Assembly: GCA_947488655.1 (NCBI GenBank)
Contig: CANKZZ010000001.1
Coordinates: 558,001 to 622,000, forward strand
Length of the DNA stretch: 64,000 nt
Reading direction: 5' to 3'
From: an uncultured Psychroserpens sp.
Lineage (GTDB): Bacteria; Bacteroidota; Bacteroidia; Flavobacteriales; Flavobacteriaceae
The notes beneath the pieces are model-generated. The model ran no database searches. It was given only the letters and a program-made list of their open reading frames with translations, and was not told the DNA's origin. Below, piece after piece: positions 50,843 through 54,181 of the stretch (within the stretch, counting starts at the first letter, position 1; every line of letters begins with the position of its first letter). The position numbers were made by a program, and so were the translations under genes.

Positions 50843-52123
50843 ATGATTTTAGAAATGAAAGTTCCTTCACCAGGAGAATCAATCACAGAGGTTGAAATTG
50901 CAGAATGGTTAGTAGCCGATGGAGATTACGTAGAAAAAGATCAAGCCATTGCAGAAGTTGATAGTGATAAAGCAACATTAGAACTTCCTGCTGAAGCTAG
51001 CGGAACAATCACACTCAAAGCCGAAGAAGGTGATGCTGTTGAGGTTGGAGCTGTAGTGTGTTTAATAGATACAGCTGCCGAAAAACCTAGTACAGATTCA
51101 GGAAAAGATGTTCCAACTACTTATCAAGGTGGTGGGTCTGAAGGTGGAGCTAATAAGCAAGAAACTAAAGAACTCATGGAGGATCTAGATTCTGGAAAGA
51201 ATAAAGAAAATCATGACAAAGCACCAAATCCATCTCAAAAAACTTATGCATCTGGTACTGCAAGTCCAGCAGCTAAAAAAGTGTTAGCCGAGAAAGGTAT
51301 GGATGCCTCATCAGTTTCTGGTACAGGAAAAGACGGTCGTATCACAAAAGACGACGCTGTAAATGCAAAACCATCTATGGGAACACCAACCGGTGGAAAT
51401 AGAGGAAGCTCACGCAGTAAAATGTCAATGTTGCGTCGTAAAGTTGCAGAGCGTTTGGTAGAGGCTAAAAATACAACAGCAATGTTAACAACGTTTAACG
51501 AAGTTGACATGTCACCAATTTTTGCATTACGTAAAGAATACAAAGAAGATTTTAAAGCTAAGCATGGTGTAAGCCTTGGGTTTATGAGTTTCTTCTCGCT
51601 AGCAGTTGTTAGAGCATTAAAAATGTATCCTGCGGTAAACTCTATGATTGATGGAAAAGAAATGTTGACTTATGATTTTGTAGATATTTCAATTGCAGTA
51701 TCTGGTCCTAAGGGATTAATGGTGCCAGTGATTAGAAATGCAGAAAATTTATCGTTTAGAGGTGTTGAAGCTGAGGTTAAGCGTTTAGCGCTTAGAGCTA
51801 GAGATGGTGATATCACAGTTGATGAAATGACAGGTGGTACATTCACAATTACAAATGGAGGTGTGTTTGGCAGTATGTTATCTACGCCAATTATCAACCC
51901 ACCACAAAGTGGGATTCTAGGAATGCACAATATTGTTGAGCGTCCAGTTGCTATTGATGGTCATGTAGAAATTAGACCAATCATGTACGTCGCTTTATCT
52001 TATGATCATAGAATTATTGATGGTAAAGAATCTGTTGGTTTCTTAGTAGCAGTAAAAGAGGCGTTAGAAAATCCAATTGAGTTATTAATGGATAATGATG
52101 TAAAGAGAGCATTAGAAATGTAA
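50843..52123 (+). CDS. odhB: Dihydrolipoyllysine succinyltransferase (2-oxoglutarate dehydrogenase E2)
   Basis: Lipoyl domain [26 protein letters not shown]. Confidence 0.95.
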
Positions 52124-52183: not shown

Positions 52184-52265
52184 CTATTAAATAGTACAAG
52201 CATTTTGCTTACCTAAAAGACAATTATTGTAGTGTTCTAGTTTCCGAAGAAAACTTAAAAGCATA

Positions 52266-52301
52266 AAAAAGCGCAACTCTATAAATAGAATTGCGCTTTT
52301 T
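52266..52301 (-). terminator. Terminal hairpin (T5) of the minus-strand array
   Basis: Minus strand AAAAAGCGCAATTCTATTTATAGAGTTGCGCTTTTTT. Confidence 0.8.
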
Positions 52302-52326
52302 CTCCCTAATAAAAATAACTAACTAA

Positions 52327-52437
52327 CTAAAAAAAATTCACAAGAATATTGATTGATATTATTAAAATGGCGCTAAATATTAAGCCCGCAATAAACAGTT
52401 TGTTTGTTAAGCTTTGCTTGTTTTTCATTGTTTCCAT
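52327..52437 (-). CDS. 36-aa single-TM small protein METMKNKQSLTNKLFIAGLIFSAILIISINILVNFF
   Basis: Hand translation of the minus strand; charged N-terminus and a ~20-residue hydrophobic helix; lies between T4 and T5 hairpins. Confidence 0.5.
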   Translation of the reverse strand: METMKNKQSLTNKLFIAGLIFSAILIISINILVNFF

Positions 52438-52473
52438 TTTTTTATGTTTTAAATTATACGCTACGTTTTTAAT

Positions 52474-52562
52474 AAAGCTCTGAGTTTTTAATCACTCAGA
52501 GCCTTATATACCCTAATTAATTAATAGAGTTACCTAAAAAAAATCCCTCTAATCTTAATAAC
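52474..52562 (-). ncRNA. Candidate sRNA unit 4 / leader of the 36-aa ORF
   Basis: TTATTAAGATTAGAGGGATTTT...CTATTAATTAATTAGGGTATATAAGGCTCTGAGTGATTAAAAACTCAGAGC; 40 nt downstream of palindrome A; hairpin lacks a U-tract. Confidence 0.45.
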
Positions 52563-52597
52563 TCTGGTGTAAAATTCGCTATTTAAGTCATGCAATA

Positions 52598-52622
52598 CAA
52601 TACGTAACTTTACGTATATTTT
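52598..52622 (-). promoter_or_regulatory. Palindromic operator/promoter repeat, copy A
   Basis: caa-TACGTAACTTTACGTA-tatttt; core 52601-52616. Confidence 0.7.
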
Positions 52623-52652
52623 GACTTTTTACTATAAATATGAACGTTATAA

Positions 52653-52725
52653 AACAAAAAAGCTCTAAGTCATGTGACTTAGAGCTTTAATCCTTTTAAT
52701 AAAAAAAGGAAATTGATTAATAGCA
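52653..52725 (-). ncRNA. Candidate sRNA unit 3
   Basis: CTATTAATCAATTTCCTTTTTTTATTAAAAGGATTAAAGCTCTAAGTCACATGACTTAGAGCTTTTTTG; U-tract hairpin; 37 nt from palindrome B. Confidence 0.6.
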
Positions 52726-52756
52726 ATGCAAATTTTAAAAATTTTATGATATCAAA

Positions 52757-52781
52757 CAATACGTAACTTTACGTATATTTT
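52757..52781 (-). promoter_or_regulatory. Palindromic operator/promoter repeat, copy B
   Basis: caa-TACGTAACTTTACGTA-tatttt; core 52760-52775. Confidence 0.7.
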
Positions 52782-52790
52782 AGTTTTTAT

Positions 52791-52862
52791 TAAAAAAAAA
52801 CTCTAGAATAAAATTATCTAGAGTTCTGCAATATTTAATTTTCCCTATAAAAATTAATAGAC
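52791..52862 (-). ncRNA. Candidate sRNA unit 2
   Basis: CTATTAATTTTTATAGGGAAAATTAAATATTGCAGAACTCTAGATAATTTTATTCTAGAGTTTTTTTTTA; U9 hairpin terminator. Confidence 0.6.
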
Positions 52863-52898
52863 TTCACAAATATCTTAATAATATCTCATAAAGTTTAT

Positions 52899-52912
52899 AG
52901 GTATATATACCT
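52899..52912 (-). promoter_or_regulatory. Variant palindrome upstream of unit 2
   Basis: AGGTATATATACCT, 39 nt from the CTATTAAT of unit 2, same position as the TACGTAA palindromes in the other units. Confidence 0.45.
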
Positions 52913-52919
52913 GTTTTAA

Positions 52920-52994
52920 TGAAAAAAACTCTGAATTCATTACAAATTCAGAGTTTCATAGTTTCTAATTCTCCCTATAAGAATTAATAGATAG
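52920..52994 (-). ncRNA. Candidate sRNA unit 1
   Basis: CTATTAATTCTTATAGGGAGAATTAGAAACTATGAAACTCTGAATTTGTAATGAATTCAGAGTTTTTTTC; U7 hairpin terminator; 37 nt from palindrome C. Confidence 0.62.
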
Positions 52995-53023
52995 GCAAAT
53001 ATGTATATAATATTTAATGAAGT

Positions 53024-53048
53024 CAATACGTAACTTTACGTATATTTT
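53024..53048 (-). promoter_or_regulatory. Palindromic operator/promoter repeat, copy C (abuts regulator stop codon)
   Basis: caa-TACGTAACTTTACGTA-tatttt; core 53027-53042. Confidence 0.7.
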
Positions 53049-53673
53049 ACAAAATATGTTCTTCGTTTTCTTTAACCCAAATAATCAAACTATTTTGTTT
53101 GTGATTAAGGTTTAGTTTTTTAATAATATTACTTTTATGTTTTTCTACTGTTCGTACAGAGATATTCATAGAATCTGCCATCATTACACCAGTTTCATTT
53201 TGAGCTATAAGTTTAAGCACCTTCATTTCGGTAACCGTTAAGCTTTTTAATTCTTCTGGAGTTTCTTTTATTTCTATATACTCAATTAGTTCTGGGCTAA
53301 AATAATTTTGTTCTCGTAATACATTTGCAATACAGATTTCTAATTCTGCAATTGCAAACTCTTTAAGTATATAACCATAGATTCCCAAAGATTTTGCTTT
53401 GTTATAAATTTCTTCACTCTTTTCAAAAGTGATAATGATTATTTTTGTGTCTAGGTTAGCATCTTTACACTTTTCTGCAACTTGCAAACCAGTAAATATA
53501 GGCATTTGAATGTCTAAAATGGCAATATCTGGTTTGTGAGCGTTTATAAGAGTAAACGCTTCTTTTCCGTTTTTGGCGCTTGCAATGACATTAAATTGTT
53601 TTTCTAGCAGAAAATCATTAAGTCCTTTTAAAATAAGTGGATGATCATCTGCAATAATGATAGATGTAGACAT
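53047..53673 (-). CDS. Response regulator, receiver + LuxR/NarL-type HTH (no adjacent histidine kinase)
   Basis: IADDHPLILKGL, ILDIQMPIFTGL, LTVTEMKVLKLIAQNETGVMMADSMNISVRTVEKHKSNIIKKL. Confidence 0.95.
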   Translation of the reverse strand: MSTSIIIADDHPLILKGLNDFLLEKQFNVIASAKNGKEAFTLINAHKPDIAILDIQMPIFTGLQVAEKCKDANLDTKIIIITFEKSEEIYNKAKSLGIYGYILKEFAIAELEICIANVLREQNYFSPELIEYIEIKETPEELKSLTVTEMKVLKLIAQNETGVMMADSMNISVRTVEKHKSNIIKKLNLNHKQNSLIIWVKENEEHIL

Positions 53674-53740: not shown

Positions 53741-54181
53741 CTACAATTTTAAGTATAAATATCTCTTATCATAATCTATAACAGCTTTAGATTTTTTTAA
53801 AATATCTGCACCAATAATACCATCAACTGGTTTGGCATTATGAGTTGTTAATGCTGTATTTACGTGAGATAAATTAAAAAGTACCAGTACAACTTTGTCT
53901 TTTTTCCATTTACCTATTTTAATTGAATTCTTTTTTGAAACCTGAGTAAGCATATCAATAGCACCAGCACCAGCAGCTTTTATTTTTGAGTCTTTAGCTA
54001 TAAGTTTAAAAGTTTCTATAGCTTCAAAACCAACGCAAGAGCTAGACGCACCAGTATCTAAAATGAAGCGTCCTTTAACACCATTAATAGAAGCTTTGAT
54101 TTCAAAATGATTAGTTTTTGTAAGCTTTAATTTAATTTTAGTGTAATCTTTATGTAATAAGTATTCTTGTAAAGTTTCCAT
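53741..54181 (-). CDS. Retropepsin-like aspartic protease
   Basis: GRFILDTGASSSCVG; VDGIIGADIL. Confidence 0.88.
   Translation of the reverse strand: METLQEYLLHKDYTKIKLKLTKTNHFEIKASINGVKGRFILDTGASSSCVGFEAIETFKLIAKDSKIKAAGAGAIDMLTQVSKKNSIKIGKWKKDKVVLVLFNLSHVNTALTTHNAKPVDGIIGADILKKSKAVIDYDKRYLYLKL

Follow-up and report, generated by a model that had tools for sequence, protein, structure and literature searches.

The stretch of DNA analysed in this study (the window, 64,000 nt) carries a tandem array behind a NarL-type response regulator (RR). With a probability of roughly 84%, a cluster of trans-acting small RNAs (sRNAs) together with one small membrane protein is the dedicated output of the adjacent RR, and the 5′ hairpin with its AGGG loop is a functional element shared with other regulators. 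The array RNAs are best read as a new sRNA family whose members act in trans and are addressed by regulators.

Layout of the locus

The source genome (G000, 3.6 Mb) belongs to the Flavobacteriaceae, and the closest named relatives found are Psychroserpens, whose RRs are 75–80% identical. The order on the minus strand is aspartyl protease, NarL-type RR, four tandem units, a 36-aa protein and a terminator, converging on odhB. The RR is presumed to be the activator of the array. The parts are as follows.

53741..54181, minus strand: retropepsin-like aspartyl protease upstream of the RR (Pfam Asp_protease_2, 1.6e-10)
53047..53673, minus strand: NarL/FixJ-type RR, 208 aa, receiver plus GerE/LuxR HTH (Pfam Response_reg 3.1e-25, GerE 7.6e-12)
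53027..53042, minus strand: putative operator 1, exact palindrome TACGTAAAGTTACGTA, abutting the −33 TTG of unit 1
52922..52990, minus strand: candidate sRNA unit 1 (type A), CTATTAATTCTTATAGGGAGAATTA hairpin and terminator with U7 (fold z −3.8; covariance model match 52918-52994, E 1.2e-6, best in the genome)
52898..52913, minus strand: putative operator 2, variant CAGGTATATATACCTA, geometry as in the other units; kept in Psychroserpens loci as CAGGTAAATATACCTATTG
52792..52860, minus strand: candidate sRNA unit 2 (type A), CTATTAATTTTTATAGGGAAAATTA hairpin and terminator with U9 (fold z −3.1; covariance model E 1.5e-5)
52760..52775, minus strand: putative operator 3, exact palindrome (repeat search)
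52654..52723, minus strand: candidate sRNA unit 3 (type C), CTATTAATCAATTTCCTTTT...AAAAGGA and strong terminator with U6 (fold z −7.2; covariance model E 4.1e-4; subtype the same in relatives)
52601..52616, minus strand: putative operator 4, exact palindrome (repeat search)
52438..52564, minus strand: unit 4, structured leader of the small-protein mRNA (fold z −5.3; covariance model match 52467-52527, E 4.1e-5; kept in relatives)
52327..52437, minus strand: 36-aa single-TM protein METMKNKQSLTNKLFIAGLIFSAILIISINILVNFF (ORF reading; conserved)
52265..52302, minus strand: terminator of the small-protein mRNA, with AGGGAGAA directly upstream (fold and terminator scan)
50843..52123, plus strand: odhB (gene name from reading of the protein)

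The tandem minus-strand array described in the first-pass annotation is real, and with four units it is larger than described. A 33-nt repeat with TACGTAAAGTTACGTA occurs three times on the minus strand (52597, 52756 and 53023), and all three occurrences of the exact 16-mer palindrome in the whole 3.6-Mb genome lie in the array. The palindrome had been assigned to every unit. This holds for units 1, 3 and 4, where the exact form is followed by TTG, but unit 2 has only the variant at the same place. The CTATTAAT...AGGGA repeat is found at 52820-52861 and 52950-52991, and unit 3 belongs to another subtype (CTATTAATCAATTTCC...AAAGGA) than the type A units 1 and 2. The 5′ end of unit 1 was placed from the position of the −7 element. 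Each unit RNA folds as a small hairpin plus a terminator, with z from −3.1 to −7.2 against shuffles, and five strong terminators were found against 0.1 expected in shuffles. Units 1–3 have strong hairpins with U-tracts and predicted RNAs of ~70 nt; the three U-tract hairpins reported earlier were thus recovered. Unit 4 contains a GAGTTA..TAACTC hairpin, AGAGGGA, ATTAATTAGGG and an GCTCTGAG hairpin without a long U-tract. It leads into the conserved 36-aa membrane-protein ORF, which lies just beyond the left edge of the region described earlier and was missed.

Two side observations were made in the same genome. TAGGGAGAA stands immediately before the terminator of the small-protein mRNA, at 52300-52308 (complement). 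A degenerate operator with two mismatches is present at G000:C3:36824-36950 (L004, L237), ~95 nt upstream of a promoter-like site; the predicted transcript starts with CTATTAATCAATTT, as in unit 3, and encodes a ~46-aa secreted-looking peptide.

Conservation and promoter geometry

Orthologs of the RR were found in 132 of 301 family genomes (E ≤ 1e-60), and the DNA behind the RR was parsed at 119 loci. With the pattern ACGT-N6-ACGTATT and at most one mismatch, an operator-like site follows the RR at 111 of these loci against 0.45 expected from dinucleotide shuffles. The exact operator is present at 89 loci, against 0.05 expected in dinucleotide shuffles of the 119. The RR-linked palindromic promoters proposed earlier are therefore borne out at the level of the operator-like site. 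The layout of RR, array, small membrane protein and odhB recurs across Flavobacteriaceae; the check for the same architecture next to orthologous regulators found it conserved. A small hydrophobic TM ORF is found in 98 of 102 complete RR–odhB spans, against 15 on the opposite strand, and its product is a 33–45 aa single-TM peptide. The aspartyl protease adjoins the RR in 35 of the 39 loci with upstream sequence. Our own parser detected sRNA-like units in 64 loci, one unit in 49 and two to five in 15; six operators are present in L077. The sRNAs are not obligatory, because some RR loci (e.g. L053-L055) carry the operator and the small ORF only, with almost no leader and no sRNA.

Several loci depart from the common layout. 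Nine model matches occur in ~1.2 kb at one place of G349 (L196, G349:C1:1238814-1239996), five of them equal-scoring at 138-nt spacing, which looks like a recently amplified tandem array. In L194 (G122) and L161 (G199), the module lies between the aspartyl protease and odhB and the RR gene between them is missing; L161 retains an intact operator, and none can be recognised at the first unit of L194. Regulator loss is a possible explanation of both. Two different small membrane-protein ORFs per array are present in L031, L033, L034, L044 and L048, each with its own operator and leader, and sRNA units lie in between.

The spacing of the promoter parts is nearly fixed. Measured from the operator-linked TTK, the −7 element ends after 28 nt in 126 of 130 units, and CTATTA lies 5 nt beyond that end in 122 of 130. 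The −7 element, [T/G]AnnTTTR, is a form of the known Bacteroidota −7 element TAnnTTTG. From the fixed spacing we infer that the RNA 5′ end lies near CTATTAAT. As in RsmX/Y/Z-type systems, a palindromic site, here operator-like and at fixed geometry, stands upstream of each predicted promoter. CTATTAAT was also considered as a generic flavobacterial 5′ end, with 22 matches against 6 for the control in the source genome. This idea was rejected, since beyond the array and one or two others almost none of the matches lies at a plausible promoter.

The window RR and the distant L014 RR have in common the HTH C-terminal variant IIKKL..KQNSL..W and the operator centre AAGT. The other eight RRs of alignment A1 have IR.KL...N..... 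and mostly GAAC operator centres. The RR tree shows 19 changes of operator type, where shuffling gives a mean of 33 and a minimum of 29. This pattern, which is confounded by shared descent, fits a cognate pair of RR and operator.

The RNA module and its copies behind other regulators

The alignment of 49 units (A2) reads CTATTAATTAGTTCTTAGGGAGAATTAT followed by the terminator, and the 5′ hairpin UUCUUAGGGAGAA hardly varies among dozens of genera. In the terminator, both-side (compensatory) changes are found at 12 of 12 pairs, and none of 500 shuffles reaches the observed values. Its pairing is 95.9%, and slid controls drop to about 60% or less. RNAalifold recovered the terminator helix unaided. 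Hairpin 1 was not recovered because of too little variation; it has a both-side change in one pair only, besides several one-sided changes. Therefore, the structure of hairpin 1 rests on folding and symmetry rather than on covariation. The first-pass annotation had proposed multicopy small RNAs with a conserved 5′ part and divergent terminators. The unit alignment and the terminator covariation support this proposal at the sequence level: the terminator covaries while the 5′ module is nearly invariant, so the 5′ part is correctly described as conserved and the terminators as free.

The covariance model R1, trained on a set that included units 1 and 2 and excluded units 3 and 4, returned the four window units as its top four matches in the whole source genome. 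The matches below them (L170, L171) were discarded as ordinary 3′-end terminators by inspection. Matches were found in 101 of 301 family genomes, 1 to 9 per genome, many of them outside the RR locus. In a class-wide sample of 390 genomes, the matches fell in the same family only, bar one weak match (L262), which resembles an ordinary terminator and was rejected. No match was obtained in that sample for g128, a large multi-species genus, which may explain the lack of a report from transcriptomes of better-studied genera. A search of Rfam 15 (including Flavo-1) with the window region and seven relatives gave no match near the gathering threshold, and the matches at a lenient threshold were noise only. 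The comparison with Rfam thus leaves the novelty in place.

The module is also present directly behind a 256-aa PAS-LuxR protein (PAS_3 4e-7, GerE 3e-14), which is often beside murF (named by reading of the protein end). This protein occurs in 43 of 201 genomes; it is absent from the genome of the window and present in the congener G046. In the PAS-LuxR loci L197-L226, a different palindrome (TACTCAAATTGAGTATTG or close) stands at the same 28-nt spacing and the module is found in 30 of 30, with AGGG or AAGG in 28 of them and terminators of differing sequence. The PAS-LuxR loci that were read have a single unit with its own terminator and no small membrane-protein gene directly behind. In G280, the RR and the PAS-LuxR protein are in tandem, and behind each of them lie a separate operator and a separate module. 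In G005 (L178, G005:C3:361900-372000), a TPR histidine kinase and a 221-aa response regulator form a pair that is present twice, and a TTACGG..CCGTAA palindrome and the module stand behind both pairs. The strongest argument that selection keeps the transcribed module, and not the operator or the terminator, comes from these loci, where the module is found behind different regulators with different operators. The earlier view that the copies are clustered at the regulator is correct for the array at the RR, but the copies beside other LuxR-type regulators were overlooked. That at least two regulators with distinct operators have the same module suggests that several signals are integrated there. 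One further copy (CTATTAATCAATTTTTAGGGAGAATTGAG, L187, G262:C5:116546) has no LuxR-type regulator nearby and no recognised operator, and stands beside an apparent toxin–antitoxin gene pair (by reading).

The same loci bear on the possibility that there is no trans-acting RNA and the units are cis elements only, either leaders that cause premature termination or operator decoys for the small-protein gene. Unit 4 is a leader of this kind, and the units resemble duplicated leaders minus the ORF. However, the PAS-LuxR loci that were read carry a lone unit with its own terminator and without their own small membrane-protein gene, and the transcribed module is kept far better than termination or regulator titration needs. 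This explanation is therefore considered unlikely. In many genera the module hairpin, or a related one, is also found in the small-protein leader. The sRNAs may thus have arisen from leader copies without the ORF, or the other way round.

A type I toxin–antitoxin system, in which the hydrophobic peptide is the toxin and the sRNAs are antisense antitoxins, is slightly less probable still. The single-TM peptide in 98 of 102 loci and the neighbouring sRNAs with strong terminators would suit it. In contrast, the sRNAs lie on the same strand and share the leader sequence instead of complementing it, and no complementarity between sRNA and the initiation region of the small ORF was detected (z +0.4). 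In the loci read, the PAS-LuxR copies have no peptide directly behind. Moreover, the sRNA and the peptide gene have a common operator and therefore would be co-induced, which argues against a toxin–antitoxin pair.

Proposed action and known systems

In the mechanism that we propose, the active RR would bind the palindrome by the −33 element of each unit and activate the weak promoter with [T/G]AnnTTTR at −7. Transcription would start at about CTATTAAT and stop at the terminator of each unit to give ~70-nt RNAs, and the last unit would read into the small membrane-protein ORF. The AGGG-loop 5′ hairpin would be the functional part, and the second hairpin would mainly terminate. The PAS-LuxR protein near murF and the TPR-kinase/RR pair would own their copies behind different operators. 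Since other regulators own copies of the module, several signals would feed one RNA effector, as in the Qrr and Rsm systems but without CsrA. Binding and activation by the RR, transcription, action in trans and its mode are all predicted here from sequence. The RNAs would act stoichiometrically through the exposed AGGG(A) loop.

The chance that this loop pairs with C-rich mRNA sites is about even. The tests for a pairing partner gave negative or weak results and no target. The pairing target TTCTCCCTA gave 12 matches in the source genome against 12 for the control, and most of them overlap coding sequence on one strand or the other. Comparison of the sRNA with the whole small-protein leader gave z −1.3, not significant and probably from similar hairpin arms. 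Pairing with the anti-SD (about −1.1) and between types A and C (−0.8) was not significant. A short G-rich loop is unsuited to reliable target prediction, so pairing and protein sequestration are both kept, with a slight preference for pairing.

On the side of sequestration, the RNAs could be sponges for an RNA-binding protein whose further target is the small-protein leader with its similar hairpin, which we regard as a tentative option. It would suit the near-invariance of the hairpin including its paired bases, the 1 to 9 matches per genome and the fact that certain small-protein leaders (e.g. L048, L050 and L070) contain the module. However, no candidate protein was found in the searches, which covered CsrA and RRM_1; RRM_1 (PF00076, RbpB-type) is absent from the source genome, with a positive Bacteroides control. 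By analogy with eukaryotic RRM motifs, an RRM protein was also considered as the reader of the UAGGGA loop and was rejected on the same absence.

The likeness to GacA–RsmX/Y/Z had been pointed out from the start. In RsmX/Y/Z proper, GGA-loop RNAs titrate CsrA/RsmA under a GacA-type regulator, and the LuxR-type RR, the upstream palindrome and the A(N)GGA in the hairpin loops of several RNAs are as expected for it. The earlier remark that CsrA is generally not reported in Bacteroidota agrees with our search, in which CsrA (PF02599) was found in 0 of 81 family genomes including the source genome, with positive E. coli, B. subtilis and T. maritima controls. Membership in RsmX/Y/Z is therefore refuted. 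In addition, the RR scores 78 bits against the NCBIfam cut-off of 280 for UvrY/SirA/GacA, and a single AGGG(A) loop is present per ~70-nt RNA where several GGA loops are expected. This explanation is the least probable of those considered. With CsrA absent and RRM_1 absent from the source genome, a route through Rsm or through RbpB does not fit.

More speculatively, and slightly less likely than the sponge option, one RNA effector may be shared out over several LuxR-type regulators with different inputs, each with a private copy, a private operator and identical promoter geometry. In Flavobacteriaceae it would form a global hub of post-transcriptional control that needs neither CsrA nor RRM proteins, and a new RNA-binding protein would recognise its UUAGGGA hairpin. 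Post-transcriptional control is poorly mapped in this family, whose members are major marine carbon degraders. A compact, widespread sRNA family tied to specific regulators is a directly testable entry point, since operators, promoters, RNA ends and the effector hairpin are predicted to the base. DNA sites are also proposed for two LuxR-type regulators without known targets. Neither the operator nor the array is described in Rfam 15 or in the literature searched, which was mostly open-access, so that an earlier description is possible.

Regulator-driven multicopy sRNAs are a known kind, represented by RsmX/Y/Z, Qrr, CiaR csRNAs and FopS. The sRNAs Qrr1-5 of Vibrio have a conserved functional part, and each has its own promoter driven by a response regulator (studies cited in PMC11697453); their regulator LuxO is of the NtrC/sigma54 type, and they are Hfq-dependent. 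As in the Qrr and csRNA systems, the array has multiple related candidate units, each with its own putative regulator-type site and terminator, and like Qrr1-5 it has a conserved part. It differs from Qrr in its NarL-type RR, its flavobacterial −33/−7 promoters and one module behind several regulators. The RR CiaR of Streptococcus drives several related sRNAs, the csRNAs (cited in PMC11697453), as is proposed for the array; CiaR is of the OmpR type, no shared sequence is known, and the csRNAs are not known to have a second regulator with its own operator. FopS of Bacteroides has 14 paralogs, associated with the RRM protein RbpB, and a 5′ seed described as single-stranded (PMC11697453). Like the array, FopS is a set of multicopy Bacteroidota sRNAs with a conserved 5′ part and a terminator hairpin, but RbpB has no RRM_1 counterpart in the genome of the window and the array has no Rfam match. 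Rfp18 and Flavo-1 are conserved flavobacterial RNAs, and the third stem-loop of Rfp18 is described as its pairing region (PMC9723704). Both are conserved RNAs of Flavobacteriaceae like the array; Flavo-1 gave no Rfam match at the array or its relatives, and Rfp18 is set apart by its description. RsmX/Y/Z of gammaproteobacteria (GacA–CsrA/RsmA) resemble the array in the LuxR-type RR, the upstream palindrome and the redundant short GGA-loop RNAs. They are not homologous to it; the array lies in a family without CsrA, has its copies at the regulator, and has other regulators with copies. What sets the present system apart from the known ones is that the array lies at the regulator, that a small membrane protein is linked to it, and that several regulators privately own the module in a family without CsrA.
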